61,789 nt of DNA from a virus. The notes below the pieces were generated by a model. That model was not told where the DNA came from, made no database searches, and was given only the letters and a program-made list of their open reading frames with translations. Shown in pieces: positions 2,623 to 55,064 of this stretch (position 1 is its first letter; each line of letters starts with the position of its first letter). The stretch is taken from the IMG/VR virus record IMGVR_UViG_3300030419_002074, positions 1 to 61,789 of that record. One strand, given 5' to 3'. The translations under genes and the position numbers were made by a program.

Positions 2623-2695
2623 GCCCCGTTCGTCTAGTGGACTAGGACATCAGGTTTTCATCCTGAAGACAGGAGTTCAATTCTCCTACGGGGTA
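2623..2695 (+). tRNA. tRNA-Glu (UUC)
   Basis: Full cloverleaf. The acceptor arms GCCCCGT and ACGGGGT pair, with G1-U72 at the end. The anticodon stem TCAGG/CCTGA encloses loop TTTTCAT with anticodon UUC. The T arm is AGGAG-TTCAATT-CTCCT. A73 is followed by CT, so CCA is not encoded and must be added by the host enzyme. Confidence 0.93.
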
Positions 2696-2696
2696 C

Positions 2697-2980
2697 TGCC
2701 TTCGGGCATAAGCATGTAGACGTTATTATTGAATCAATACAGGACGCGGGTTCGACTCCCGCCGCCTCCACTCAACGACGAAGCGTAAATGGGGGCGAAA
2801 TGGCTTTCGACTGGTTGTGGATATAATGATTGCATGTCGTAGTTGATAGAAGGGCTACGTTAAAAATCTATCACAACTTCAAATGGCGTAGAGAATTACG
2901 CAATGGCCGCTTAGGTGGCCGATTGACCTACTTGTAGGTCACGGGGCTTGCCAGTGCCTTGTTACCAAAACTGGCACTAT
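2697..2980 (+). ncRNA. ssrA: Circularly permuted (two-piece) tmRNA
   Basis: The tmRNA halves are in reversed order. The 3' half comes first: GCATGTAGACG at 2711, T arm GCGGG-TTCGACT-CCCGC at 2746-2762, acceptor strand CGCCTCC 2763-2769 and A73 at 2770. A 20-base spacer 2771-2790 follows, then the 5' half starting GGGGGCGAAATGGC at 2791. The acceptor strands pair over 7 bp with the G3-U70 wobble that alanyl-tRNA synthetase needs. The tag reading frame ends NGVENYAMAA-stop (stop 2912-2914), close to the canonical ENYALAA. Hairpins 2925-2940 and 2953-2978 follow the tag. The product should rescue stalled ribosomes with SmpB from the host, since none is seen here. The outer ends (2697, 2980) are estimates. 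Confidence 0.92.
2882..2914 (+). other. tmRNA proteolysis-tag reading frame
   Basis: The in-frame codons read N-G-V-E-N-Y-A-M-A-A and stop at TAG 2912-2914. The resume codon is probably one to three codons upstream, giving a tag of about 11-13 residues. The AMAA end resembles the hydrophobic ALAA end of bacterial tags that is read by ClpXP-type proteases. Confidence 0.85.
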
Positions 2981-3051
2981 GGTGCGGTGGATCGGTTATC
3001 CAAGCGAGTCTTATATACTCGCCTCCGTAGGTTCAATTCCTACCTGCACTA
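2981..3051 (+). tRNA. tRNA-Ile (UAU)
   Basis: Acceptor GGTGCGG pairs with CTGCACT (G1-U72 again). The anticodon stem CGAGT/ACTCG holds loop CTTATAT with anticodon UAU, reading AUA isoleucine codons directly. The T arm is GTAGG-TTCAATT-CCTAC. It starts directly at the end of the tmRNA. AUA is frequent in this AT-rich genome (many ATA codons are visible), which would explain why the phage carries it. No CCA encoded. Confidence 0.88.
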
Positions 3052-3056
3052 CTCAT

Positions 3057-3130
3057 GGACTCGTAGCTCAGTTGGTTAGAGCAGGGGACTCATAATCCCT
3101 TTGTCGGGGGTTCGAGTCCCTCCGAGTCTA
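3057..3130 (+). tRNA. tRNA with CAU anticodon (Met or Ile2)
   Basis: Acceptor GGACTCG/CGAGTCT, D arm GCTCAGTTGGTTAGAGC, anticodon stem GGGGA/TCCCT with loop CTCATAA and anticodon CAU, T arm GGGGG-TTCGAGT-CCCTC. It is elongator-type, not initiator-type. CAU could also be an isoleucine tRNA after lysidine modification; the sequence alone does not settle this. Position 1-72 is G-U and CCA is not encoded. Confidence 0.9.
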
Positions 3131-3134
3131 CTAT

Positions 3135-3206
3135 GGCCTGATAGTTAAACGGATATAACAAGGGTCTTCTAAACCCTAGTTCGAGGTTCGATTCCTCGTC
3201 GGGCTA
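3135..3206 (+). tRNA. tRNA-Arg (UCU)
   Basis: Acceptor GGCCTGA/TCGGGCT, anticodon stem AGGGT/ACCCT with loop CTTCTAA and anticodon UCU, T arm CGAGG-TTCGATT-CCTCG. It reads AGA, a codon that dominates the arginine codons of this window. G1-U72 and a following ACT are shared with the other tRNAs of the island. Confidence 0.92.
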
Positions 3207-3228
3207 CTTAAAATTTAATGGAGAATAA

Positions 3229-7005: not shown

Positions 7006-8064
7006 ATGAAAATAGTAGAAGAAACAAAATTAGATTTTGATGACATACTTTTAGTTCCTGCACGATCTCCTGCCGCCAGCAGGAAGGAAGTAGAATTAAA
7101 AAGAAACTTCAAATTTTTTCACTCACCGAAAGAGTGGCGTGGACTCCCCATCATGGCGGCCAACATGGACACTACCGGAACTTTCAATATGGGTTCCGCT
7201 TTGGCAAAACATGAGGCCGTAACATGCTTACATAAATTCAATGATCCCGACAGGGTTGTGGACTATTTTAAGTACTACAACATAGAGCCTAGTGTGTGGG
7301 TTTCTGTAGGTATGAATAAGGACGACTTGAATAAACTACATACTATCAAAAACGGAATTCACTCTGAACCAAATATTTGTATTGATATTGCCAACGGCTA
7401 CACTGAGAAATTTGTAGAATGGTGTTCCGTTGTTAGGTCGCACTTTCCAGAGTCAATCATCATGGCAGGAAATGTCTGTACACCTGAGATGGTTCAAGAG
7501 TTAGTTCTTCATGGCGGCGTAGATATAGTTAAAATAGGAATCGGGCCGGGGTCTGCCTGTACCACCAGACTTAAGACCGGAGTAGGATACCCTCAACTTT
7601 CAGCAATTATCGAATGTAGCCACGCTGCTCATGGATTAAAAAGTGGTGATGGAAAGATGGGTCTTATCTGTGCTGACGGGGGATGTAGAATACCGGCAGA
7701 TATTTGTAAGGCTTTTGCGGCAAACGCTGACTTTGTTATGCTTGGAGGAATGTTGGCTGGTACAGATGAATGTGAGGGAGAATGGGAATACTCTACTGAT
7801 GAAAAGAAAACAGCCCTTAAGTTTTATGGTATGTCTTCAAAGAAGGCACAAGATAAACATAATGGAGGTATGAACGGTTATGCTACTAGCGAGGGTAGAA
7901 TTAAAATTACTCCATACAGAGGGTCAGCGGATTCTGTTATAAGCGACATCAAAGGAGGTTTGCGTAGCTGTTGTGCATATATTGGTGCTACTCGGCTTAA
8001 GGATCTACCTAAATGTGCAAAAGCTATCAAAGTTAATAGAACTCATTTTGACAAAACGCTGTAA
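7006..8064 (+). CDS. guaC: GMP reductase (IMPDH/GMPR family)
   Basis: A TIM-barrel enzyme of 352 residues. LDFDDILLVPARSPAASRKEVEL at the start, MAANMDTTGTF (52-60), the catalytic loop GPGSACTTR with Cys185, ADGGCRIPADICKA and LGGMLAGTDE define the IMPDH/GMPR superfamily. The absence of CBS domains, the length and AANMDTTGTF fit GMP reductase better than IMP dehydrogenase. It converts GMP to IMP with NADPH and ammonia release, recycling host guanine nucleotides. Unusual in phages; fits the nucleotide-supply theme with NrdAB, ThyX and MazG. Start is ATG 7006, right after the preceding stop. Confidence 0.88.
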   Translation: MKIVEETKLDFDDILLVPARSPAASRKEVELKRNFKFFHSPKEWRGLPIMAANMDTTGTFNMGSALAKHEAVTCLHKFNDPDRVVDYFKYYNIEPSVWVSVGMNKDDLNKLHTIKNGIHSEPNICIDIANGYTEKFVEWCSVVRSHFPESIIMAGNVCTPEMVQELVLHGGVDIVKIGIGPGSACTTRLKTGVGYPQLSAIIECSHAAHGLKSGDGKMGLICADGGCRIPADICKAFAANADFVMLGGMLAGTDECEGEWEYSTDEKKTALKFYGMSSKKAQDKHNGGMNGYATSEGRIKITPYRGSADSVISDIKGGLRSCCAYIGATRLKDLPKCAKAIKVNRTHFDKTL

Positions 8065-8965: not shown

Positions 8966-9997
8966 ATGGGAAGACCTTGCATATGCTGTAAAGAGGAGCC
9001 ATCATCTTCAGATTCCTCAAGCCGATCCAGTGAACCTTCTGAATCGGTTTCTGCTTCCGAGTCCATTAGTAGTGAATCTGTTTCTAGTAGTAGCGAGTCT
9101 GCTTCTAGTAGTCGTTCTTCTAGTAAATCTGGTTCTTCTAGTGAATCTGCTTCTTCTAGTAGTGAATCTGTTTCTAGTAGTGCTTCTGCCTCTAGTAGTA
9201 GCCCATCGGAATCTGCTTCTAGTAGTGAATCTGTTTCCAGCAGCGAATCCGCTTCTAGTAGTGAATCTGTTTCCAGCAGCGAATCCGCTTCTAGTTCAGA
9301 ATCGGTTAGCGTATCAGGAAGCGTTAGCGTATCAGGAAGTACCGTATCAGGAAGTACCGGATCAGGCTCTTCGTTTAGTGCCTCGTTTTTCGCTTTTTCC
9401 GGATCTTCTTCTTCCGGAGCCTCTTCAGTAGACCCATCCTCAGACGTGTCTGTTTCCGCTTCCGTTAGTGTTGGATCTTCATCTACTGTGGTATTCAAAG
9501 ATTACTGTTGTCGTAGCACAGGCATTGAAGGTGCGGCCTGTGATTGGTCAAACGACTGGGAAGGAGGTCATGGATGTGTAACATTTGAAGGCGTGCTTGG
9601 GGGTAAATACGGATGTGAAACAGTAGTTTGCGGATACGTTGATGAACATACTTCCTGTACTGCAATTTTAAATTGTAGAACTTTAACACAAGAGGCGTGT
9701 AATAGGGAGTGCGATGCGGGCTGTGAGGGCATACCAACCGGCTTTTGTCTTCCCTGTCAGGAAGGTGGAGTCACTGTATGTTACGAGGTTGAAGAAGTAC
9801 TACCTACAGATTGTCGGGAAAACTGCAACTGTGAGGATACTGAAGGGTGTACATACGATTACGATGAAGGTACAGACAGCTATATTTTAGCATTTTCAAC
9901 ATGTCCAGACGGTTGCGATTGTGAAGGTCAGCTACCCAGCCCCTTTCCCCCCGGCGGTGGGCCAGCTAGAATTACTGGAAATTGTCTGGACGAATAA
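8966..9997 (+). CDS. Serine-rich repeat protein with Cys-rich C-terminal domain
   Basis: A 343-residue protein in three parts. The N terminus MGRPCICCKEEP has a CxCC cluster. Residues about 13-175 are almost only Ser with Glu, Ala and Val (SESVSSSESAS repeats, then VSVSGS repeats). The C-terminal ~165 residues contain more than 20 Cys in CxC and CxxC spacings (CNCEDTEGC, CDAGCEG, CPDGCDCEG), suggesting disulfide knots or metal binding. No signal peptide or membrane helix. Likely an extracellular or virion fibre-like protein; the Ser tract is a natural target for O-glycosylation by the adjacent glycosyltransferase. Ser tract length is maintained by DNA repeats. Function is inference. Confidence 0.7.
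   Translation: MGRPCICCKEEPSSSDSSSRSSEPSESVSASESISSESVSSSSESASSSRSSSKSGSSSESASSSSESVSSSASASSSSPSESASSSESVSSSESASSSESVSSSESASSSESVSVSGSVSVSGSTVSGSTGSGSSFSASFFAFSGSSSSGASSVDPSSDVSVSASVSVGSSSTVVFKDYCCRSTGIEGAACDWSNDWEGGHGCVTFEGVLGGKYGCETVVCGYVDEHTSCTAILNCRTLTQEACNRECDAGCEGIPTGFCLPCQEGGVTVCYEVEEVLPTDCRENCNCEDTEGCTYDYDEGTDSYILAFSTCPDGCDCEGQLPSPFPPGGGPARITGNCLDE
9218..9289 (+). repeat. Perfect 36-bp tandem duplication inside the serine tract
   Basis: Two identical 36-base units at 9218-9253 and 9254-9289 encode SSSESVSSSESA. They are embedded in a wider field of imperfect TCTAGTAGTGAATCT-like repeats from about 9065, and 18-base GTTAGCGTATCAGGAAGC-type repeats follow at 9305-9360. Repeats of this kind change copy number by slippage. 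Confidence 0.9.
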
Positions 9998-15004: not shown

Positions 15005-15421
15005 ATGAACGCTTTAATGACTAAACATGACGAACTTTTTAGAGACCTGTTTTCCAATTCAATAGGAATGAACAGGCTTTTCAATAGACTGGCAAATGCT
15101 GAACAGTCTAATTTTCCACCTTACAATATCGTCCATGATAGCGGTAGCATTTTTGTTGAACTGGCCTTAGCTGGATACAACAGAGATGATATTGAGGTTA
15201 TTGTAGAAGATGGGGTGCTTTCAATAGAGGGCAACAATAACTCTGACCGTGATGGTGACTTTCATCATAAAGGAATTGCATCACGCCGCTTTAAAAGAAA
15301 TTTCAGCCTCGGTGAATACATTGAGGTTAAATCAGCTGAATTAAAAGACGGTCTTCTTACTATCGCACTTGAGGAGGTTCTTCCCCCCGAGAAACAGCCA
15401 ACAGTGATTGATATCAAGTGA
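15005..15421 (+). CDS. Hsp20 / alpha-crystallin small heat-shock protein
   Basis: 138 residues. Alpha-crystallin domain from about residue 38 (YNIVHDSGSIFVELALAGYNRDDIEVIVEDGVLSIEG) with SRRFKRNFSLGEYIEV and the signature ELKDGLLTIALEE (A-x-x-x-n-GvL type). The C-terminal VIDIK supplies the I-x-I motif used in oligomer assembly. Acts as an ATP-independent holdase in the cytoplasm. Hsp20 genes are frequent in aquatic phages. TAGGAG precedes ATG 15005, behind a structured leader. Confidence 0.92.
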   Translation: MNALMTKHDELFRDLFSNSIGMNRLFNRLANAEQSNFPPYNIVHDSGSIFVELALAGYNRDDIEVIVEDGVLSIEGNNNSDRDGDFHHKGIASRRFKRNFSLGEYIEVKSAELKDGLLTIALEEVLPPEKQPTVIDIK

Positions 15422-17002: not shown

Positions 17003-18262
17003 ATGTTAGATTTTTACTTTAACAGACGGGATTTTCTCAGGATAGGATCTATTGGTACAGGGATGACACTTGCTGGCTTGTCAGATGCTGCATTGGCTGA
17101 ACAGCCTAGAGCATACGAAGATAAGTCCGTTGTTTGGGTCTGGCTAGGCGGTGGCCCTACCCAGTTTGAAACTTTTCACGCCCCAAACGACACGGTTCCT
17201 ACAGAGTGGCAGCCTGTAAACGGTGCAAAGCACGACCCAAAGACCAACATTACTCTTGGGGAAGATTGGCGGGAGCTATCTAAACATACTTCAAAATTAA
17301 ACGTAGTTAACTCATTTAGTCATAAGGACTCTTCGCATAGACAGGGAACTCATTTTATGATGACTGGGCATTACAACCCAGAACGAACAACAACATCTAT
17401 GGCTAAGTATCCCTCATTTGGGTCAATGGTATCCGCTATTTATGGAACCAATCATCCAGACAACGGAGTTCCTTCTTATGTTAAACAAGGTAAGATCGAA
17501 GGAGATGAAGGGGCTTGGCTTGGAGGTGCATACAAGCCCTTTGACCCATCTAATAAAGACAACCTAACTCCACGAATTGAGCTAGATAGATTTAGTAACA
17601 GAAAAACATTACTCAGTGAGTTAGGATCTGCTGCTAAAGATATTTCTGGCAAGGGTGCCCAGTCTGTTGGATTTTATAAAGGTCAGGCTTATGATGTCAT
17701 ACTTGGTTCAGCAAAGGAGGCGTTTGCAACGGACAAAGAATCTGAATCTACAAAAGCACTATACGGATCTACAAAAGCTAATGACATTGGAGAACAGCTT
17801 ATCCTAGCTAGAAGACTGGTCGAGCATGGAACTAAATTTATCACGCTACATTATGGTGGATGGGATATGCATAGCAATATATCCAACGCCCTTAAAACAA
17901 AGGTGGCTCCGATAGATAAAGCTATTGCTGGATTTCTTGCAGACCTATGGGATCGAGGCTTAAACGAAAAGGTTCTCTTGGTTGTTACAGGAGAGTTTGG
18001 TAGAACTAAAATAAATGCAAATGCTGGACGTGATCATTGGCCTGCAATTACACCAATGATGATGGCCGGTGGCGAATATCAATCAGGGAGGACTATCGGT
18101 AAGGCAGATAGATCTTACAGTCCTACAGAGAATCCTGTAGGGCCGCTTGATCTGCAAGCAACTCTGTTTGACCACTTCGGAATTGATGGAGCGATTCAAC
18201 GTACTGACATGTCTGGTCGTCCCAGATATTTGTTAGAAGGTGAAGCAAAAGTAATTCTTTAA
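17003..18262 (+). CDS. DUF1501 family protein, copy 1, with Tat signal
   Basis: 419 residues. N-terminal twin-arginine signal NRRDFLRIG (7-15), hydrophobic stretch and AALAEQ cleavage region. Mature domain: VWLGGGPTQFETF, HFMMTGHYNP, a Tyr-rich middle, LILARRLVEHGTKFITLHYGGWDMH and the C-terminal signature GEFGRTKINANAGRDHWP. These are DUF1501 hallmarks, a family with an alkaline-phosphatase/sulfatase-like fold, very abundant in Planctomycetes. Its biochemical role is unsettled. Compared with copies 2 and 3 it lacks the Pro in EFGRTPKIN. AAGGAG precedes ATG 17003. Confidence 0.88.
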   Translation: MLDFYFNRRDFLRIGSIGTGMTLAGLSDAALAEQPRAYEDKSVVWVWLGGGPTQFETFHAPNDTVPTEWQPVNGAKHDPKTNITLGEDWRELSKHTSKLNVVNSFSHKDSSHRQGTHFMMTGHYNPERTTTSMAKYPSFGSMVSAIYGTNHPDNGVPSYVKQGKIEGDEGAWLGGAYKPFDPSNKDNLTPRIELDRFSNRKTLLSELGSAAKDISGKGAQSVGFYKGQAYDVILGSAKEAFATDKESESTKALYGSTKANDIGEQLILARRLVEHGTKFITLHYGGWDMHSNISNALKTKVAPIDKAIAGFLADLWDRGLNEKVLLVVTGEFGRTKINANAGRDHWPAITPMMMAGGEYQSGRTIGKADRSYSPTENPVGPLDLQATLFDHFGIDGAIQRTDMSGRPRYLLEGEAKVIL

Positions 18263-18276
18263 TAGAGGAGGTGACT

Positions 18277-18417
18277 ATGCCATTGTTTAATGGTCCACTC
18301 GCTACATTTATTAGGAAACACAAGCTAGTCAGACGTACTGCTGTTGTTGGCGGTGCTTTGGTTGGTATCTACTTCTTGGGAGCTTCCCAAGGTTGGTGGG
18401 AAAGATTTTTATTTTAA
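18277..18417 (+). CDS. Small single-span membrane protein (46 aa)
   Basis: ATG 18277 behind a strong GAGGAGGTG. Basic N terminus (FIRKHKLVRR), hydrophobic helix (TAVVGGALVGIYFLGAS) and a Trp-rich end. Located between DUF1501 copies 1 and 2. Its consistent spacing suggests that it belongs to the same envelope-directed unit; function unknown. Confidence 0.6.
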   Translation: MPLFNGPLATFIRKHKLVRRTAVVGGALVGIYFLGASQGWWERFLF

Positions 18418-18428
18418 GGAAAAGAAAT

Positions 18429-19685
18429 ATGAAAAGACGACATTTTTTACATGCTGGTATTCTTGGTAGTTTTGGTTTATCTCTAGCTAGGGGTGATCAA
18501 AAGTTTTACGAAAGTAAAGAAGGGCCAGCCAAAAGTGTTATTTTCATATATCTCCCCGGAGGAATGGCTCATCAGGAAACTTTAGATCCTAAGCCATTTG
18601 CTCCGTTGGAGTATCGTGGACCGCTTGGTAGTATAGACACTAACATTCCCGGCATTCGTCTGGGTGAACTGCTAAGTAAGACATCTAAAGTTATGGATAA
18701 AATTACAATTATCCGCAGTATGACACATGGAGAAGCAGCTCATGAGCGTGGGACACACAATATGTTTACTGGCTATAGACCTAGCCCAGCCCTTCAATAC
18801 CCATCTATGGGTTCAGTGGTTGCACATGAGTTTGGACCTCGTAAAAACCTTCCTCCATATGTCTGTATCCCCAACCAGCCTAATGAATTTGCAGGTACTG
18901 GATATTTAAGTAGCTCTTATTCTGGGTTTGGTTTAGGCTCTGATCCCGCTAGTGATGGATTCCAAGTTAGAGACCTAAAGATTCCGGTTGAAGACGAAAG
19001 ATTCACAAGAAGACAGCGTGTGCTTAATATAGTCAATACGGATTTTAACAAGAAGCAAGAAGCTGATTCTGTTAAGGCGATGAACTCATTTTATGAGCGT
19101 GCTTACAGTCTCATAGGAGATCAAAACGCAAGGGATGCCTTTGATATAGAAAAGGAACCGGCAAACATTAGAGATAAATATGGCAGAAATACTGCCGGTG
19201 CTAGAATGTTACTGGCCCGCAGGCTAGTAGAGTTTGGAACAAGATTCGTAACACTCACCTATGGCGGGTGGGATATGCATGATAACATAGCCAATGGAAT
19301 GAAAAATCAGCTTCCGGCTTTCGATCAAGGTTTTGCAACTCTTATTGAAGACTTGGATGATCGTGGATTACTCGACTCTACGTTAGTGTGTGTGGTTTCT
19401 GAGTTTGGAAGAACCCCAAAAATCAACGCTAACGCTGGTCGTGATCACTGGCCAAAAGTTTTTAGTACAATAATGGCAGGCGGTGGCATTAAAAGAGGAA
19501 TGACATATGGAACCTCAAATGCTACTGCGAGCGAACCAGACCAAAACCCAGTCAATATAGAAGATTGGGCGGCTACTATCTACAATAGATTAGGAATAGT
19601 TGCTGATAAAGAATTAATGGCTCCCGGCGAACGACCTATCGAGATTGTTGACGGCGGCAAATTACTAACAGATATTATTACTTAA
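18429..19685 (+). CDS. DUF1501 family protein, copy 2, with Tat signal
   Basis: 418 residues. Tat-type start MKRRHFLHAG; start ATG 18429 is supported by AAGGAAAAG and by the signal. Core motifs: FIYLPGGMAHQETLDPKPFAP, IIRSMTHGEAAHERGTHNMFTGY, MLLARRLVEFGTRFVTLTYGGWDMHD, SEFGRTPKINANAGRDHWP. Closest to chromosomal planctomycete DUF1501 proteins by layout. The family is exported folded, which suggests a cofactor or metal is inserted in the cytoplasm. It is diverged from copy 1, so these are not recent duplicates. Confidence 0.9.
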   Translation: MKRRHFLHAGILGSFGLSLARGDQKFYESKEGPAKSVIFIYLPGGMAHQETLDPKPFAPLEYRGPLGSIDTNIPGIRLGELLSKTSKVMDKITIIRSMTHGEAAHERGTHNMFTGYRPSPALQYPSMGSVVAHEFGPRKNLPPYVCIPNQPNEFAGTGYLSSSYSGFGLGSDPASDGFQVRDLKIPVEDERFTRRQRVLNIVNTDFNKKQEADSVKAMNSFYERAYSLIGDQNARDAFDIEKEPANIRDKYGRNTAGARMLLARRLVEFGTRFVTLTYGGWDMHDNIANGMKNQLPAFDQGFATLIEDLDDRGLLDSTLVCVVSEFGRTPKINANAGRDHWPKVFSTIMAGGGIKRGMTYGTSNATASEPDQNPVNIEDWAATIYNRLGIVADKELMAPGERPIEIVDGGKLLTDIIT

Positions 19686-19890: not shown

Positions 19891-20267
19891 TGAAATATTT
19901 AGCATCAACACTATGTCTCTTGCTTATCCCTTTGTCAGCCGAAGCAGAGCAGCCCGAACGCAAGGTTGTCAAGCCGCCGGTTGTAAAGAGTGTTCCTAGA
20001 GACTTTACAAGGCCACAGGTAAAGAAGCCTGCTGGTTTTGGGAAGCAAGAATGGCAAAGACCTCAACAGCCTCAAGTTAGGCCTAGCCATAACTACAGAC
20101 ACGGAAGCATAATAATCGGCAGACCTTATGTTTACCCGTATCAGTACAGAGTGTATCCACCAACGATTCACCGTTACTACTACGGTCCTCCGGTAATTGT
20201 TCAACCACAACCTGTTCCTGTTTACCCGTCTCCGTTCAGCGGACTATTTTTTCACTTTAGGTTTTAG
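19890..20267 (+). CDS. Exported Pro/Tyr-rich protein (125 aa)
   Basis: Sec signal peptide (MKYLASTLCLLLIPLSAEAEQ, cleavage after AEA). The mature part is low-complexity, rich in Pro, Tyr, Arg and Val (YVYPYQYRVYPP, PPVIVQPQPVPVYP), resembling surface or scaffold proteins. I chose ATG 19890 (ATAATG overlap) because the signal peptide starts there. One base separates its stop from DUF1501 copy 3. Confidence 0.7.
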   Translation: MKYLASTLCLLLIPLSAEAEQPERKVVKPPVVKSVPRDFTRPQVKKPAGFGKQEWQRPQQPQVRPSHNYRHGSIIIGRPYVYPYQYRVYPPTIHRYYYGPPVIVQPQPVPVYPSPFSGLFFHFRF

Positions 20268-20268
20268 T

Positions 20269-21483
20269 ATGAAAAGAAGAGAATTTTTATCATCATTAGC
20301 TGGTGTGGCCGCTTTAACCCAAACGCTAAAAGCTAATCAGCAACAGTTAAAGAAAAATGGTAAATCTGCCATCCTCCTCTGGATGGGTGGCGGTCCGTCA
20401 ACTATGGATATATGGGACTTGAAACCAGACGCACCAACCGGAGGGCCATTCAAGCCTATTGCTACAACTGGCGATGTGGAGATTTGCGAACATATGCCGC
20501 TAATGGCAAAACAGATGCATAACATGGCTATCGTGCGAAGCATGAGTACCCGTGAGGCAGATCATATGCGTGGACGATACTACATGCATACTGGCTATGT
20601 TCCTAACCCAAGCATGGTTCACCCTAGTTACGGATCTGTCATCTCTAAGGAATTAGAAAAACAAGATCTACTAATTCCACAGTTTGTTTCTGTAAATGGG
20701 CCAAGTCACGGGGCTGGTTTTTTAGGTGCCCAATACGATCCATTTAGTGTAAATAGCGATGGTAGAATTAGAAACCTAGACATGAAGATAGATCAAAGAT
20801 TCTATCAAAGGGCACATGTACTAGACATGATAGAAACTAATTTTATTAATAACAACAGAGGGTCTCTAGCAAAAGAACATCAAAAAGTTCTTAGGAAAAC
20901 TTTTAATGTTTTAACAAGTAAAGAAATGGATGCTATGAAGATAGCCGGTGAACCAGAAAATATTAAAGAAAGATATGGCGACAACGGCTTTGGTAAGGGG
21001 TGTCTAATGGCTAGGAGGCTAGTAGAAGTTGGTGTGCCTTTTATTGAAGTTGGCTTGGGAGGATGGGATAATCATCAAAACATCTTTCCAACGCTAAGAG
21101 ATACAAAACTACCCATGCTAGATCAAGGCATGAGTGCATTAGTAGAGGACTTAGAACAGAGAGGGTTACTGGAGGACACAGCTATTATATGGATGGGCGA
21201 ATTTAGTAGAACTCCACGCATTAATCAAAACGCTGGTCGTGACCACTGGGCACGAAGCTGGAGCGTGGTTGTAGGTGGTGGTGGCATGAAAGGCGGCATA
21301 GCTGTTGGTGCTACAAACGAAGATGGTACAAGAGTAGAAACAGAACCATATTCCTCCCAAGATGTTATGGCCTCAGTATGCAAGGCTCTTGGCATTTCGC
21401 TACAAACTACTTACACAAGTAAAAGTGGGCGACCTATGAAGATAGCTAATTCAGGAAAAGTAATTACTGAACTATTTTCTTAG
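20269..21483 (+). CDS. DUF1501 family protein, copy 3, with Tat signal
   Basis: 404 residues. Tat signal MKRREFLSSLAG; ATG 20269 fixed by the signal. Motifs: LLWMGGGPSTMDIWDLKP, IVRSMSTREADHMRGRYYMHTGY, GVPFIEVGLGGWDNH, MGEFSRTPRINQNAGRDHW, VVGGGGMKGG. This follows the common bacterial DUF1501 consensus most closely, including the WDLKP step. Putative sulfatase/phosphatase-fold exported enzyme. Third in the series, each copy followed by a small membrane protein. Confidence 0.9.
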   Translation: MKRREFLSSLAGVAALTQTLKANQQQLKKNGKSAILLWMGGGPSTMDIWDLKPDAPTGGPFKPIATTGDVEICEHMPLMAKQMHNMAIVRSMSTREADHMRGRYYMHTGYVPNPSMVHPSYGSVISKELEKQDLLIPQFVSVNGPSHGAGFLGAQYDPFSVNSDGRIRNLDMKIDQRFYQRAHVLDMIETNFINNNRGSLAKEHQKVLRKTFNVLTSKEMDAMKIAGEPENIKERYGDNGFGKGCLMARRLVEVGVPFIEVGLGGWDNHQNIFPTLRDTKLPMLDQGMSALVEDLEQRGLLEDTAIIWMGEFSRTPRINQNAGRDHWARSWSVVVGGGGMKGGIAVGATNEDGTRVETEPYSSQDVMASVCKALGISLQTTYTSKSGRPMKIANSGKVITELFS

Positions 21484-42457: not shown

Positions 42458-42664
42458 ATGCCACTATTTAAAAAAGATAAAGACAACAAAAAAGAGGACA
42501 GAAAAGACGATAGAAAAGATAAGGTAGAAAGTAGGAGGAACTACAGGCTTGAAAAAATCAATGCCTTGAAAGAAAAAATCTATGCCGTTGCCGCTAAAAG
42601 AAAATGGCTATTCTTGATTATTGCAGCAGCGATTGCAGCTTATCTCGTATTTAAGTTTGTATAG
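42458..42664 (+). CDS. Small charged membrane protein (68 aa)
   Basis: Lys/Asp-rich N-terminal half (KDKDNKKEDRKDDRKDK) followed by a membrane helix (WLFLIIAAAIAAYLVFKFV) at the C terminus: a tail-anchored layout. Function unknown. Precedes the dipeptidase gene by 10 bases. Confidence 0.6.
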   Translation: MPLFKKDKDNKKEDRKDDRKDKVESRRNYRLEKINALKEKIYAVAAKRKWLFLIIAAAIAAYLVFKFV

Positions 42665-42674
42665 GAGTATTGAA

Positions 42675-43898
42675 ATGAATTGGGAGCATTTACACAAACA
42701 GTCAAAAGTAGTTGATCTACATAACCACGCCATACTTAAGAAGTTCTTGCTAGACAGAGATCTAACAACTAGTAAGACTAAATTTTTGGCTTCATTGTTT
42801 AAGAGGGCTTTCTGGCCACTAAGTCAGAGAAGTACGTTCCCACTGATTAAAAAGGGTGGCGTCGATGTGGTGTTATCTACTTGTTACGTTCCTGAGAAAG
42901 AATGGGTAGACGATCAGGGGCTTGTTAAATTAGCACTAAAGTTCGCACCAAAAACCAAAAAAAGAGTTTTTGACCAGTTCTACTTCGATGCCACAGTAGC
43001 AATGATGGACTCTATAGAGTCGGAGATAGATAAGTATAACGACACTTTTGTAGGAGGTCCGGACGATGGTGCCTTCATTAAGTTGGTCAAGAATAAGAAC
43101 GAACTCATTGATTGCTTGGCTGACAATGATATTGCTATAATACACTCCATAGAAGGAGCACACAGCCTAGAGGGTATTGACTGCGAATCTTCTAATGACA
43201 ACTCTGTAGTCGAGGCCGAAGTTTTGCAGCACCTTGATTATTTTGCGGAGCGTGGCGTTGCCTATTTGACACTAGCACACTTTTATCCTAACAAGGTTGC
43301 TCATCCGGTATTTCCATATCCAACTTACGGTATTAAAAGAAGCAACTGGAAAAAACTAATGGCGGGATGGGATATGAATAAAGGCCTTACCGCTTTAGGT
43401 GCCAAGGTCGTACAGAGAATGATAGATCTGGGTATGCTTATAGATATTGCTCATTGCACCCCTAAAGCTAGAAAAGAAATATATGAGATAGTTGGAGACA
43501 GACAAAACCTTGTTATTTCTAGCCACTCTGGATGCTTTGAAATTAATCGTGATCCATATAATCTAGAAGACTGGGAAATAAAATGGATCGCAGATCATGG
43601 TGGTGTGGTTGGAATTATCTTTATGAACTACTGGATTAGTCCTATTGACACTCCGCTAGGCATGAAGTACATTGAACAAACAATTAGTCATATGCGAGAT
43701 GTTGCCGGACCCCATGTAATTGGATTGGGTACAGACTATGACGGATTTACCGACCCTCCTGATGAGATGGTTGACATTTCAGAACTTCCTAGACTAACGA
43801 GATATTTACATTCTTTAGAAAGATACTCCGAAGATGAAATCAAGGGATTTCTTGGAGGCAACTCTTTGAATACACTTATAAACGGATGGGGGCAATGA
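42675..43898 (+). CDS. Membrane dipeptidase-like protein (peptidase M19 family)
   Basis: 407 residues. VVDLHNHAILKK aligns with the M19 zinc site HxD, but the second ligand is His, not Asp (HNH). Other M19 motifs are intact: AIIHSIEGAHSL (bridging Glu), LTLAHFYPNKVAH, IDIAHCTPKARKEI, ISSHSGCFEINRDPYNLEDWEIKWIADHGGVVGI, IGLGTDYDGFTDPP and FLGGNSLNTL. M19 enzymes cleave dipeptides, including ones with a D-residue, and beta-lactams. ATG 42675 is behind TAGGAG. Odd neighbour of the RecA-like gene and rare in phages; a role in cell-wall peptide recycling or in host metabolism is inference. Confidence 0.85.
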   Translation: MNWEHLHKQSKVVDLHNHAILKKFLLDRDLTTSKTKFLASLFKRAFWPLSQRSTFPLIKKGGVDVVLSTCYVPEKEWVDDQGLVKLALKFAPKTKKRVFDQFYFDATVAMMDSIESEIDKYNDTFVGGPDDGAFIKLVKNKNELIDCLADNDIAIIHSIEGAHSLEGIDCESSNDNSVVEAEVLQHLDYFAERGVAYLTLAHFYPNKVAHPVFPYPTYGIKRSNWKKLMAGWDMNKGLTALGAKVVQRMIDLGMLIDIAHCTPKARKEIYEIVGDRQNLVISSHSGCFEINRDPYNLEDWEIKWIADHGGVVGIIFMNYWISPIDTPLGMKYIEQTISHMRDVAGPHVIGLGTDYDGFTDPPDEMVDISELPRLTRYLHSLERYSEDEIKGFLGGNSLNTLINGWGQ

Positions 43899-49986: not shown

Positions 49987-51005
49987 TAGTAACATACATC
50001 AGAAGCTCATCGTATAATAATTATGATTATTGCCAACTGCAATATTTTATAACATACGTACTTGGACACAGATCTACATCTGGTAAAAAGGCCCAACTCG
50101 GAACAATCGTACATAAAGTTATGGAGTGCTTGGCGGCTTGCAAAAAGAAGCTACAAGAAAATCCCGATAAAAAAAGTCTTTACATAAACGATGATGCTAT
50201 TGGTAAGGTTAACTTTACGCCAAGAAGTCTTTTTACTAAAACCTTTGTATCAAAAATATTAGATAGAAGCTATGAACACTATACTAGTTCATGTGGACAT
50301 AAGTATACAGGTGCTGATATAAAGTTCTGTAGAACCCAAACCGAAACAGCATTAACATACAATGACGGACAGTTTGACCCACGAAAAAGAGATGTGGTAG
50401 ACACAGAGCCTCAGTTTGATATTGCTATTGACGAACCTTGGGCTAAATTTAAATATAAAATGCCTGACGGAAAAGAAGTTGAGGGACAACTAGCAATTAA
50501 GGGTACGATAGACCTTGTTACACAGGTTGACGATCAAACTATAGAAGTAATAGACTGGAAAACGGGCAGAAGACTTAACTGGGCTACCGGAGAAGAAAAA
50601 ACTTACGAAAAACTACTTGACGATCCGCAGTTGTTACTGTATAATTATGCTATATCGAAGCTTTACCCAAACTACGACCAGTCAATCATGACTATTTTCT
50701 ACATTAGAGATGGTGGCCCATTTAGTATGTGTTTTGATAAGACAGACCAAGAGAAGTTCTTGGGGATGTTAGAAAAAAGATTTAAGCAAATACAAAGAAA
50801 CGATTTTCCGCAGCCTTGCTCTAGAAATAGGAAGAGTTTTAAGTGTACGAAGTTATGTCACTTTTATAAAAATAACTGGCCCGATACAAACATATCCATG
50901 TGTGAGCATGTTGAGGAACATCTTAAAGCGTTTGGACATGATGAAACTGTGGAAAAGTGTAGTAGAGAAGGATTTAATATAGGATATTATGAGGCACCCG
51001 GATAA
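49983..51005 (+). CDS. RecB/Cas4-like PD-(D/E)XK exonuclease
   Basis: 340 residues. SSYNNYDYCQLQYFITYV at the start (the Cys-bearing N-terminal motif), LGTIVHKVMECL (His), IKGTIDLVTQVDDQTIEVIDWKTGR (D-x(n)-DWKTG core) and DPQLLLYNYA. C-terminal Cys residues (CSRNRKSFKCTKLCHFYK, then a distant Cys) could complete a Fe-S cluster as in AddB and Cas4. GTG 49983 is the start, overlapping the kinase stop. Probably processes DNA ends for recombination together with the RecA-like protein. Confidence 0.83.
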   Translation: MIVTYIRSSSYNNYDYCQLQYFITYVLGHRSTSGKKAQLGTIVHKVMECLAACKKKLQENPDKKSLYINDDAIGKVNFTPRSLFTKTFVSKILDRSYEHYTSSCGHKYTGADIKFCRTQTETALTYNDGQFDPRKRDVVDTEPQFDIAIDEPWAKFKYKMPDGKEVEGQLAIKGTIDLVTQVDDQTIEVIDWKTGRRLNWATGEEKTYEKLLDDPQLLLYNYAISKLYPNYDQSIMTIFYIRDGGPFSMCFDKTDQEKFLGMLEKRFKQIQRNDFPQPCSRNRKSFKCTKLCHFYKNNWPDTNISMCEHVEEHLKAFGHDETVEKCSREGFNIGYYEAPG

Positions 51006-52591
51006 TGAATTGGATTCCACTAAATTGTAAAACTCACTATAGTCTGCAAAAGGCTTTCTGTAAAAGCGAGCTATTGGCTAAAAAGTGTGTCGATTATGAC
51101 TATAAGGCTTGTGGTATAGCGGACATTGGCACTCTGTCCGGTGCTGTTGATTTTCATCAGCAGTGTGTTGCTAATAACATCAAGCCAATTATAGGATGTG
51201 ATTTTGACGGTTATATTTTGTATGCGAAGAATAAACAAGGTTGGTTTGATCTGATTAGATATGTTTCAAATCAAAACTTAGATGTATTAAAAGACGTGGC
51301 TTCTAAGGGTAACTTGATATGTGTTACTCCCGATATTAACGGGTTTGCTAAGTTGTTTAAATCCAATCACTTTCAATACGATTACGATAGTAACAAGGTT
51401 TTATACGTCTCAAAAGAAGATGCCGATTGTCATCGTGTAATGCTTTGTTCTGGTATGAAAACAACAATGAAAAAAGTACAATCAATGATAAAAGACAAGC
51501 AGGAAGTTGATAATCAGGAGTACTTTGAGAGTGATGAATTTTATCTTCCTGAACCAGAACTTAGAGACGACATGGAGATAGTCAATAAGATTGCAAATCT
51601 TTGTGAAGAATACGAAGTGGCTGGCAAACCCATGCTACCGACCTTTGAATGTCCTGATGGTATAGATGAAGATAATTACGTCACCGAACTCTGTAGAGAG
51701 GGCTGGCGTAAAAAACTTATACCTTTTAACAAGGTTGAGACAGAAGAAGACAAGCGTAAATATGCCGAACGAATTAGACATGAGTTGCAGGTCATATTCA
51801 AGGCTGGGTTATCTGGCTATTTCCTAATCGTCCAAGATATCGTCAACCATGTCAAACGGCAGGGGTGGCTTGCCGGTCCCGGACGTGGATCTGCTGCTGG
51901 TTGTTTAGTTTCTTACTTATTAGACATTACTGGAGTAGACCCTATCGAGTACGACCTGATTTTTGAAAGATTCTATAACGAAGGAAGAAACACTGAGAAT
52001 TATGTATCGTTGCCCGATGTCGATATGGATGTTCCGGCAGAACATAGAGATGAAGTTATAGATTACATTAAGGAAAAGTATGGGCATGAAAATGTTGCTC
52101 AAATGATTACATTCGGTAGACTGCAAGGTAGAGCAGCCTTAAAAGAGGTTCTTAGGATCAATGACGCTGTGTCTTTTTCAGAAATGAATACGATAACTGA
52201 TAGCATACCAGACGAGGCCAAAATCTCTGACCAACTAGAATTGATGGATGATAAGTCAATTATAAGGTGGACACTTGAAAATGAGCCTGACGATTTAAAA
52301 AACTGGTGTATTATGGACGAGGACGGTTCACTGGATGGGCCTTTATCTCACTTGTTTGAGCAGGCGATAAAGATTGAGGGCACAAACAAATCACAGGGAA
52401 AACATCCGGCAGGAGTTATTATATCTAAACACAGGCTTGCAGACGTATGTCCTATGACGAAGGATAAGTCTGGAGACACACTGGCCGCCTTTGATATGGG
52501 TGACATGGAAACACAAGGGCATGTAAAATTTGACGTGCTAGGCATTGATTTATTATCTAAAATCATGGAGATATCAAGTAATGATAATTAA
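51005..52591 (+). CDS. DNA polymerase III alpha subunit, N-terminal half (split gene)
   Basis: 528 residues. PHP-like domain at the start (PLNCKTHYSLQKAFCKSELL), LSGYFLIVQDIVNHVKRQGWLAGPGRGSAAGCLVSYLLDITGVDPIEYDLIFERFYNE (palm entry, residues about 250-330), catalytic SLPDVDMDVP (about 335-344) and the third Asp region at the very end, VKFDVLGIDLLSKIMEI. Family C replicative polymerase. The usual text continues without a break, but here the frame stops at 52589-52591 and the rest is at 53487. The PHP His/Asp residues look degenerate (H-Y-S), so proofreading may be supplied by the exonuclease gene in between. Confidence 0.9.
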   Translation: MNWIPLNCKTHYSLQKAFCKSELLAKKCVDYDYKACGIADIGTLSGAVDFHQQCVANNIKPIIGCDFDGYILYAKNKQGWFDLIRYVSNQNLDVLKDVASKGNLICVTPDINGFAKLFKSNHFQYDYDSNKVLYVSKEDADCHRVMLCSGMKTTMKKVQSMIKDKQEVDNQEYFESDEFYLPEPELRDDMEIVNKIANLCEEYEVAGKPMLPTFECPDGIDEDNYVTELCREGWRKKLIPFNKVETEEDKRKYAERIRHELQVIFKAGLSGYFLIVQDIVNHVKRQGWLAGPGRGSAAGCLVSYLLDITGVDPIEYDLIFERFYNEGRNTENYVSLPDVDMDVPAEHRDEVIDYIKEKYGHENVAQMITFGRLQGRAALKEVLRINDAVSFSEMNTITDSIPDEAKISDQLELMDDKSIIRWTLENEPDDLKNWCIMDEDGSLDGPLSHLFEQAIKIEGTNKSQGKHPAGVIISKHRLADVCPMTKDKSGDTLAAFDMGDMETQGHVKFDVLGIDLLSKIMEISSNDN

Positions 52592-52808
52592 CGCTACAAA
52601 GCAAGACTATAAGTCAGTTATATTTTCTGGCTGTGCGATAGAGGCTAAGGGGGTCTCTATCTGTAACCTAGAAGACGTACTTAACACTAAGATAGGAATA
52701 CCAAGAGCCAAGTATCAAGTGTGGTCTGACAGACATAGATTTCACAAACTTTATTTTAACATAGACGAAGCTATTGAACAATTTATAGAACTAAAAGGTA
52801 AGAGGTAA
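52581..52808 (+). CDS. Small protein between the two polymerase halves (75 aa)
   Basis: ATG 52581 overlaps the end of the polymerase N-half. Basic, with KGVSICNLEDVLNTKIGIPRAKYQVWSDRHRFHKLYFNIDEAIEQFIELKG; the last part resembles the small DNA-binding repeats (AP2- or NUMOD-like) of homing endonucleases, but this is weak. It could be the remnant of a mobile insertion that split the gene, or a true subunit. Function unknown. Confidence 0.5.
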   Translation: MIINATKQDYKSVIFSGCAIEAKGVSICNLEDVLNTKIGIPRAKYQVWSDRHRFHKLYFNIDEAIEQFIELKGKR

Positions 52809-52810
52809 CT

Positions 52811-53497
52811 ATGAACTATCGCGATATTATTGTTTTTGACTTTGAGACTACTGGAAGAAATCCTCACAAATGCCAACCCACGCAGATTGCCGCAGTAGCA
52901 ATCCACGCTAGAAAGCTGACATTGCAACCGGGCGGCGTTTTTGAAAGTAAGATGAGATGCATTGTTGATGATGACAAGGCTATCGCTGCTGGATTTGATC
53001 CGGTTGAGGATGGTGCGTTAGAAGTAACTAGAAAAACTAGGGCGGAAATTGCCAAAGGCCCACTCCCAAAAACTGTTTGGAAAAAGTTCGGGCAGTTTTG
53101 TGATAAATACAATTTTAAGAAGACTAGCTTTTCAGCACCTATAGCCGCTGGTTACAACATTAATGGCTATGACATGCCTATTGTCGAACGCTTATGTCAA
53201 GACTATGGGCCTATTGATGAAAAACGTGGACGACAGAAACTGTTTAATCCTATATTTACAATGGATTTGATGCAACATGTCTACTGCTGGTTTGAAAACA
53301 ATGCTGACGTAAAGGGTTATAGCATGGATTATTTACGTGATTACTTTGGTATGCCCAAAGACAATGCTCACGATGCGTTGCAGGACGTAAAAGATACGGC
53401 TAATATTCTTATTAAGTTTCTAAAGATGCAACGCAACTTGTCTAAAAAGATTAAATTTGAAAAAGCTTTTGCTAATGGTGAGATGTATGTCGTTTGA
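52811..53497 (+). CDS. DnaQ-like 3'-5' exonuclease (DEDDh/DEDDy)
   Basis: 228 residues. ExoI: IIVFDFETTGRNPHK (D10, E12). ExoII: AGYNINGYDMPIVERL. ExoIII: NAHDALQDVKDTANIL with a His before Asp, so DEDDh. This is the epsilon-type proofreading exonuclease of the polymerase III core. It sits inside the split polymerase operon, as a replisome module. Overlaps the C-terminal half by 11 bases. Confidence 0.88.
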   Translation: MNYRDIIVFDFETTGRNPHKCQPTQIAAVAIHARKLTLQPGGVFESKMRCIVDDDKAIAAGFDPVEDGALEVTRKTRAEIAKGPLPKTVWKKFGQFCDKYNFKKTSFSAPIAAGYNINGYDMPIVERLCQDYGPIDEKRGRQKLFNPIFTMDLMQHVYCWFENNADVKGYSMDYLRDYFGMPKDNAHDALQDVKDTANILIKFLKMQRNLSKKIKFEKAFANGEMYVV

Positions 53498-55064
53498 TAT
53501 TAATGATTTTGAAGACGCTAAGGTTTGGGATTTGATATGTAACGGAGAGACGAAAGGCGTTTTTCAGTTAGAGTCAAGCTTGGGAAAGCACTGGGCGAAG
53601 GAGGTAAGACCCAGAAACATCAAGGAGCTTGCCGCATTAATTAGCCTTATTCGTCCGGGATGTCTAAAAGCCAAGGATAATGATGGCAAGAGTATGACTC
53701 AGGTATATGCAGACAGAAAAGCTGGTAAACCAAACAGTCCTGTTGAATACCTCCATGAGTCCCTAAAACCCATCCTAGAGGAAACATATGGTGTTCTTGT
53801 CTATCAAGAACAATCTATGATGATAGCACAAAAGCTTGCTGGATTCGATCTAAAAGAAGCGGATGCATTACGTAAGGCTATTGGTAAGAAAAAAGCCGAC
53901 CTGATGGAGAAGGTTAAAAAGACCTTCCTAGAGGGCACGGAGAAGATGTCAATCGTAACACAAGAAGTGGCTGAGGAGCTTTTCTCTTGGATTGAGAAGT
54001 CGAATAGATATGCTTTTAATAAGTCACACGCCGTTTCCTACGCAATTAACGCATATTGGTCTGCATACTGCAAGACTTATCGAACTAAGAAGTTCTACGA
54101 AAAATACCTTGGGCGGGCAGATAAAAAGCCAAAGCCAGACATTGAAAAGAAGCAACTTATTGTAGATGCCAAGAGATTTGATATAGATGTTATTCCTCCA
54201 AGACTACAGAACTTACACACAGAATTCACACGCTGTAGAGAGTCAGATAAGATATATTTCGGATTAAGGCATGTAAAAAATGTAGGCGTTAAAGAATGTG
54301 AAAAGATTGCAGGATTAGTATCAGAGCAAGATATCTCAAACTATTCTTGGTTAGATTGTCTTGTCAAAGTCATATATGGACTGAATCTTAATAAAAGAAG
54401 TGTTATTTCTTTGATTTCAATCGGGGCTTTTAATGGCAGAAACAACACAGAAAATAGACAGCGAATGCTGTATGATTTCGATAGTTGGAAACAGCTCTCA
54501 GCGAGAGAGCAGAAGGCTATAGCGGATAATCATAACAGCGGAGACCCATCCGTATACGCCGAAAATCTAGCCGACTGTATTGATCATATGGTTAACACAA
54601 TCAAAGTCAACTCTAGAAGAATATCGACTGTATTAGATATTAAGTCTTCATTAGAAAACCCTTTCTACGACCTGACTGATAAAGCTGGAACTATAGCTAC
54701 AGACGAAGAGAAATACATGAGCTGTTCATTAACCTGCAATAAAATAGATGGAATTGATCTAAATATGGCTACTTATATGTGCAAAGAGATAGGAAATGGT
54801 ACGATAACAGGTAAAGCAAACTTGGCGGCAGAAATTGTATCAGTACGAACGTATAAAACTAAACGTGGTAAAAATCCCGGCCAGACTATGGCCTTCTTAT
54901 GTGTTGAAGATGGTAGCGGTTCTCTAGATTCAGTTACTGTTTTTCCCGAGTGTTATGAAAAACACAGGGATTTGCTAGTCGAGAGCAATACCGTACTGAT
55001 GATTGGAGAAATTTCCAAGAAGGACAAGACCTCCTTGATAGTCAACCAGTTATCTCAAATTTGA
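53487..55064 (+). CDS. DNA polymerase III alpha subunit, C-terminal half (split gene)
   Basis: 525 residues. Starts MSFDINDFEDAKVWDLICNGETKGVFQLES, which follows the palm in intact DnaE; then RNIKELAALISLIRPG, LKPILEETYGVLVYQEQSMMIAQKLAGFDLKEADALRKAIGKKK (fingers), NKSHAVSYAINAYWSAYCKTY and a C-terminal OB fold (ITGKANLAAEIVSVRTYKTKRG). Together with the N-half it forms a full alpha subunit. I chose ATG 53487; ATG 53475 in frame is possible. Ends without a recognised beta-clamp motif at the terminus. Confidence 0.9.
   Translation: MSFDINDFEDAKVWDLICNGETKGVFQLESSLGKHWAKEVRPRNIKELAALISLIRPGCLKAKDNDGKSMTQVYADRKAGKPNSPVEYLHESLKPILEETYGVLVYQEQSMMIAQKLAGFDLKEADALRKAIGKKKADLMEKVKKTFLEGTEKMSIVTQEVAEELFSWIEKSNRYAFNKSHAVSYAINAYWSAYCKTYRTKKFYEKYLGRADKKPKPDIEKKQLIVDAKRFDIDVIPPRLQNLHTEFTRCRESDKIYFGLRHVKNVGVKECEKIAGLVSEQDISNYSWLDCLVKVIYGLNLNKRSVISLISIGAFNGRNNTENRQRMLYDFDSWKQLSAREQKAIADNHNSGDPSVYAENLADCIDHMVNTIKVNSRRISTVLDIKSSLENPFYDLTDKAGTIATDEEKYMSCSLTCNKIDGIDLNMATYMCKEIGNGTITGKANLAAEIVSVRTYKTKRGKNPGQTMAFLCVEDGSGSLDSVTVFPECYEKHRDLLVESNTVLMIGEISKKDKTSLIVNQLSQI

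Follow-up and report, generated by a model that had tools for sequence, protein, structure and literature searches.

The window analysed here, the whole 61,789 nucleotides of a metagenomic fragment from an uncultured phage (IMG/VR virus record IMGVR_UViG_3300030419_002074, positions 1 to 61,789), carries a complete two-piece tmRNA gene at 2697-2976 on the plus strand. The Rfam model of permuted tmRNA (RF04321, tmRNA_permuted) matched it over the full length of the model (1-213) at window positions 2712-2914, plus strand, with 88.9 bits and an E value of 9e-16 (2.2e-19 when the whole record was searched), against a gathering score of 47. The 3′ half of the molecule, T arm and acceptor 3′ strand included, is encoded ahead of the 5′ half. 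The original prediction, made from the sequence alone, had claimed a permuted tmRNA at 2697-2980 with T arm, acceptor strand and A73 ahead of the 5′ half. Both pieces were recovered where it had put them, and its outer limits described the gene better than the Rfam match, which the gene exceeds at both ends: a hairpin begins at 2697 and a second pseudoknot finishes at 2976. In contrast, the one-piece model RF00023 reached at most 28.7 bits in the window, with the acceptor part only, and a contiguous order of 5′ half followed by 3′ half was not found. A one-piece tmRNA running from 2791 onward, the case that the prediction had named as its refutation, was rejected for want of any match downstream. 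ARAGORN missed the gene in the window and called a tmRNA* in relatives, one of them with the tag GVENYAMAA, so that surveys based on this program may undercount such genes. The window gene is thus a genuine circularly permuted tmRNA. It is flanked, in ARAGORN calls on the plus strand, by tRNA-Glu(UUC) upstream (2623-2696) and by tRNA-Ile(UAU), tRNA-Met(CAU) and tRNA-Arg(UCU) downstream (2981-3207). Throughout this cluster (2623-3207), no CCA is encoded in any of the four tRNA genes or in the tmRNA gene, and CT follows the discriminator base in all five.

The acceptor piece opens with the hairpin UGCC-UUCG-GGCA (2697-2708), directly before UAAGCAUGUAGAC. Most relatives have a hairpin of different sequence at the equivalent place; most of these, taken singly, are too short to stand out from shuffled sequences. 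The P2 strands (AAGCAUGUAGACGUU...CAAUACAG; 2710-2742), assigned from the Rfam alignment and motif counts, carry CUAAGCAUGUAGA, a hallmark of one-piece tmRNAs. Within them GCAUG (2712-2716) pairs with CAUGU of the coding piece, and P2a pairs in 10 of 10 homologues. The T arm (2746-2762), placed by the Rfam alignment and the sequence, shows double changes at three of its five pairs. It is followed by the acceptor 3′ strand CGCCUCC (2763-2769) and A73 (2770). The predicted 20-base spacer is indeed there (2771-2790), as the part of the precursor to be removed; its length in relatives ranges from 5 to over 100 bases. The coding piece starts with the acceptor 5′ strand GGGGGCG (2791-2797) and the tRNA-like domain AAAUGGCUUUCG (2791-2809), located by the Rfam alignment and by pairing. 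All seven acceptor pairs form, including G3-U70 (G2793-U2767), in line with the prediction, and 10 of 10 homologues have U-G at the position of this pair. In the permuted gene of contig L413 (genome G388, about 1550-1700) the spacer is over 100 bases long and contains a direct repeat (AAGTTGGGTCAGGGTTCCCA) that is perhaps a trace of rearrangement. In that of contig L144 (G014) the spacer has 109 bases, and PK1 is interrupted by an additional hairpin of about 40 bases.

Further along the coding piece, pseudoknot PK1 (2838-2873) is formed by CGUAG/CUACG and UGAUAG/CUAUCA, as seen from covariation in 10 homologues. The tag frame (2879-2914) runs, according to the Rfam alignment, from the resume codon UCA at 2879 to UAG and encodes (A)SNGVENYAMAA; its 3′ end reads GGC GUA GAG AAU UAC GCA AUG GCC GCU UAG, which confirms the foretold tag end NGVENYAMAA, with TAG following at 2912-2914. 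Tags of relatives include GVENYAMAA, VEENFALAA and AEENFALVA, and the AA end is kept in nearly all. The stop codon sits in the covarying P5 hairpin GGCCGC/GUGGCC (2905-2920). After the hairpin UGACCUACUUGUAGGUCA (2924-2941), which sequence and alignment place in close relatives only, the piece ends with pseudoknot PK2 (2941-2976; ACGGGGC/GCCUUGU and UGCCAGU/ACUGGCA). An H-type pseudoknot is found here in relatives: PK2 recurs with altered sequences in every permuted relative examined and in the one-piece phage tmRNAs of genomes G001 and G325. P5, the 2924-2941 hairpin and PK2 lie 3′ or partly 3′ of the RF04321 match. Among 10 family members, 96.5% of the cells of the acceptor, T, PK1 and P5 stems were paired, a value that leans in favour of these stems because they were drawn on the window sequence. 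Stronger evidence comes from the double changes: 31 cells changed on both sides in the 10 homologues, whereas shuffles gave 9.6 such cells and slid controls no more than 3.

Elsewhere the contig encodes an rIIB-like protein, PhoH, a RecA-like protein, a DnaB-like helicase, a primase and DNA polymerase III alpha, besides proteins resembling ribonucleotide reductase and numerous glycosyltransferase-like ones; some of these names rest on our reading of translations. Among the matches listed against cultured phages, DnaE reached at most about 30% identity, and blastn with the tmRNA gave T-arm matches only, most of them in phage tmRNAs of the one-piece form. DNA polymerase III alpha is in two parts (N-terminal 51005-52591, C-terminal 53457-55064; together 51005-55064), with an exonuclease-like gene (52811-53497) between them. 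Three look-alike proteins are encoded in tandem (17003-18262, 18393-19685 and 20197-21483), and the first of them matched DUF1501. A tblastn search for this DUF1501 protein found none in 50,697 phage records, and its best plasmid match came from Singulisphaera, with about 30% identity. DUF1501 proteins are often met in planctomycetes, and together these observations may hint at a host on the planctomycete side, though as only a hint. Elsewhere in the window are a manA RNA motif (RF01745; 14763-14946, 56.7 bits, just over the cut-off), which precedes a small heat-shock-like gene at 15005 and has a weaker copy in contig L119; a long serine-rich repeat of the SSSES type fused to a cysteine-rich C-terminal part (8966-9997); and genes for a membrane dipeptidase M19 (42621-43898) and an IMP dehydrogenase (7006-8064).

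We then compared the phage family with bacterial tmRNAs. With one regular expression, a CUAARCAUGUAG-type motif was detected in 12 of the 13 permuted tmRNAs from phages and in 17 of the 20 one-piece tmRNAs from bacteria, and in none of the permuted tmRNAs of alphaproteobacterial (0/28) or betaproteobacterial (0/4) type. This bacterial permuted set covers alpha and beta sequences by our own assignment, the beta group being taken from organism titles and the alpha group named from the sequence type in Pseudomonadota genomes. The window family keeps the one-piece hallmark CUAAGCAUGUAGA, and none of the 32 permuted sequences of alpha or beta type that were compared has it. At the same position the RF04321 consensus, cyanobacteria included, has gGuugUaaacac. 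The P2-strand signatures of the alpha and beta lineages (CUAUGGCGAUAAAC or AUGGCUGUAAUUCCGG) were not found in the phage sequences, which carry CUAARCAUGUAGA, and RF04321 scores were mostly 113-162 bits for alpha and beta permuted tmRNAs versus 51-105 bits for those of phages. When the coding part was compared without the tRNA-like domain, the one-piece tmRNA of G001 matched permuted relatives with an E value of 4e-13 and the one-piece tmRNA of G325 with 2.6e-9; the best bacterial tmRNA matched it with 0.008. Across 398 Pseudomonadota genomes, the best of the matches to the window gene that we looked at proved to be a one-piece tmRNA (L471). A search of bacterial genomes with a pattern modelled on the phage sequence gave no match, and a second pattern search returned almost only betaproteobacterial records. 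In a tree of 69 tmRNAs, the phage family with both of its forms made one clade (support 99/96), apart from the alpha (100/100) and beta (99/98) permuted clades. An AU test in which all alpha, beta and phage permuted sequences were forced together did not reject this union (p = 0.17), so that an origin of the phage tmRNA lineage separate from the alpha- and betaproteobacterial permuted lineages is supported by these sequence comparisons, not proven. The alpha- or betaproteobacterial donor implied by the original prediction found no support: the signatures of those lineages are absent, and beyond the permuted family the closest kin are the one-piece tmRNAs that related phages carry.

These one-piece tmRNAs, the nearest relatives of the window gene outside the permuted family, belong to the same phage group, whose members were collected through the rIIB-like protein, the N-terminal part of DnaE and the tmRNA sequence. 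In genomes G001 and G002, whose rIIB is 93% identical to that of the window, the tRNA cluster has no permuted tmRNA. Ahead of a dCMP deaminase gene, these genomes have a complete one-piece tmRNA (107.7 bits) whose tag ends in SVEENFALAA, as in permuted relatives. An acceptor piece that had seemed to stand alone in these two genomes, as a weak RF04321 match, proved to be the end of this one-piece tmRNA, and a separate coding piece, sought in G001, G002, G007, G009 and G010, was not found there. In a blastn comparison of this one-piece locus (contig L275) with a permuted one (L140), two segments, acceptor (1777-1843) and coding (1501-1629), aligned in swapped order, and both tmRNAs lie upstream of the same dCMP deaminase gene. 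A module made of the tmRNA, the dCMP deaminase and the genes named 13485, 13907 and 14140 after their window coordinates occurs with a permuted gene in G355, G015, G011, G017, G388 and G359 and with a one-piece gene in G001 and G325; for G359 and G325, a deaminase gene directly beside the tmRNA was not observed. The same two genes flank the permuted tmRNA of G355 and the one-piece tmRNA of G001. Further one-piece cases are G325, G360, G372, G373 and G386. A scan for the acceptor signature yielded 57 contigs, 27 one-piece, 21 permuted and 9 undecided or unreadable; as the scan selects for the signature, these contigs add no further evidence for it.

To follow the changes between the two forms, we examined trees of DnaE and of the tmRNA itself. 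In a phage DnaE tree with six one-piece and six permuted genomes the forms interleave: the well supported branches call for a minimum of four changes, and a single clade of one-piece phages was rejected (p = 2.5e-37). Part of this interleaving may be due to gene exchange, because the genomes are mosaic: G004 (contigs L124 and L409) shares 91% identity with the window in rIIB but no more than 52% in DnaE. In a tmRNA tree of 48 sequences, rooted on bacterial one-piece tmRNAs, all phage genes of both forms fell into one clade (100/100) with five to six changes of form (three to six in bootstraps). AU tests on this tree rejected neither a single clade of phage permuted genes (p = 0.25) nor one of phage one-piece genes (p = 0.24). 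With only 183 usable columns in the tmRNA alignment, and with these alternatives and the union with the bacterial permuted sequences unrejected, the number and direction of the switches are not fixed. The simplest account of the sequences would be one-piece ancestry, at least one permutation in phages, and forms replacing each other at shared loci. The most likely origin of the window gene is permutation of a one-piece tmRNA already present in these phages, followed by exchange of the two forms among phages at the shared locus. The bolder proposal, a fourth independent permuted lineage born in phages from their own one-piece gene, with repeated switches and alleles swapping beside the dCMP deaminase gene, is tentative, and we would put it somewhat below an even chance.

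Other readings of the data have to be weighed against this one. A chance resemblance, a pseudogene or an assembly artefact might be suspected in a metagenomic fragment in which ARAGORN makes no call, but the E value of 9e-16, the many independent homologues and the covariation leave next to no probability for it. More serious is the idea that the permuted gene was acquired ready-made from a bacterium with permuted tmRNA (a cyanobacterium, an alpha- or betaproteobacterium, or a member of an unsampled group) and that the one-piece phage forms are separate or secondary. Three bacterial permuted lineages do exist, other phages carry a two-piece tmRNA of alphaproteobacterial type (PMC9004378), and the AU test tolerates all permuted sequences together. 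Yet the motif missing from the 32 alpha and beta sequences, the gap in RF04321 scores, the different consensus of that model at the hallmark and the fact that the one-piece and the permuted sequences of phages find their nearest kin in one another make such an uptake improbable. The direction could also be reversed, the permuted gene being the older one in the phage lineage and the one-piece genes having been resealed from it, as in Jakoba libera mitochondria. One-piece G002 and G325 stand among permuted genomes in the first DnaE tree, and the one-piece gene of G373 is only 258 nt long, made of a coding piece with PK2, a short linker and an acceptor piece. On the other hand, the bacterial relatives are one-piece and have the same hallmark, more distant members of the phage group (G386, G372, G373) commonly have one-piece genes too, and the G001 gene clusters with others of that form (92/93). 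We regard resealing as unlikely, though about twice as credible as ready-made uptake, and for G001 and G002 resealing from a permuted gene was dropped as the preferred direction on account of this grouping, which emerged with wider sampling.

The path from gene to function can be sketched from what is known of two-piece tmRNAs. The precursor would be transcribed together with the tRNAs, and host tRNA enzymes would cut it after A73 (2770) and before G1 (2791) and so remove the spacer, with host RNase P cutting before G2791 and 3′ trimming proceeding after A2770. Since neither the four tRNA genes nor the tmRNA gene encodes CCA, it would have to be added to complete the acceptor piece. This piece and the coding piece would stay paired through the acceptor stem and P2, and host AlaRS would charge the molecule through G3-U70. 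SmpB (PF01668), a partner protein whose presence does not define a tmRNA gene as such, was not found in 11 records of the phage group, which are fragments, so that function would need the SmpB of the host; together with it, the tmRNA would enter stalled ribosomes, add the tag and release them. Extra ribosome rescue capacity under phage control during infection is the most likely role. The RNA might instead be a decoy or a regulator, for example by titrating host SmpB, with no rescue for the benefit of the phage. That the search for SmpB in these phage records found none would fit this, and a tmRNA of mycobacteriophage DS6A that has only the tRNA-like domain has been described as inhibitory (PMC4131195; PMC11915505). 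However, compensatory changes have preserved the tag frame, its stop codon and both pseudoknots, PK1 and PK2, and the AA end is kept in nearly all tags, none of which a pure decoy would need. As tag and stop codon are kept, we give the decoy only a slim chance. Taken as a whole, we consider quite probable the explanation in which the genuine permuted gene of this phage tRNA cluster belongs to a phage-specific lineage with two forms, set apart from the alpha and beta ones, with the origin and the mechanism as proposed here.

What is known of the way in which a gene comes to be circularly permuted derives chiefly from three old bacterial lineages and from organelles, where the steps are blurred. 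In the present phage group both forms occur, some of them between the same neighbours, so that a duplication-and-loss model and its reverse can be tested on close sequences. The group offers a natural case for studying how a tmRNA gene changes form and a test of what phages gain from a ribosome-rescue RNA of their own. It also suggests that two-piece tmRNAs could stem from phages and not from host lineages alone.

The location of a permuted tmRNA in a phage, which the original prediction had presented as the surprise, carries less weight, even though the gene itself stands. A published survey of 402 tmRNA-bearing phages with 133 unique tmRNA structures called 53 of them two-piece, 50 of these 53 being marine or aquatic (PMC9004378), and the window's permuted tmRNA is therefore not new by itself. 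In our own survey the permuted order was present in about 39 of 119 IMG/VR viral contigs with one acceptor motif, a count that rests on our own pairing rule. About 35 permuted tmRNAs of other types were seen in viral contigs (L003, L008, L010, L017, L056, L061 and others), many of them with a UUGUAUGAAG-like P2 strand. As far as the literature consulted shows, what is new is a lineage with both gene forms.

Among known systems, Methylophilales phage Melnitz resembles the window in having a permuted tmRNA together with tRNA genes. Its two-piece ssrA is reported to be of alphaproteobacterial type and linked to a glutamine riboswitch (PMC9004378), a description that sets it apart from the window, and one-piece phage relatives at the same locus belong to the window family. 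A change of form inside one lineage has a parallel in Jakoba libera mitochondria, where, according to Williams 2004 as relayed in PMC3978253 and PMC11915505, the tmRNA gene was re-permuted to one piece; as related there, that case concerns an organelle and the reverse direction, whereas here many phage genomes hold the two forms at one shared locus. With the two-piece tmRNA of RF04321 (alpha- and betaproteobacteria, some cyanobacteria) the window gene shares the gene order, the split acceptor stem with G3-U70, the T arm and the tag frame near the end of the coding piece, and a terminal GGGG...CCUU pseudoknot of the window type is also found in one betaproteobacterial two-piece tmRNA. It differs from that kind in keeping the P2 motif CUAAGCAUGUAGA and a two-stem PK1, in its far lower score and in falling outside the alpha and beta groups in the tree of 69 tmRNAs. 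With the one-piece tmRNA of RF00023, in turn, it shares the P2 hallmark, PK1, tag and PK2; the two differ in the order of the halves, and what lies between PK2 and P2 in the one-piece form is absent from the permuted one.
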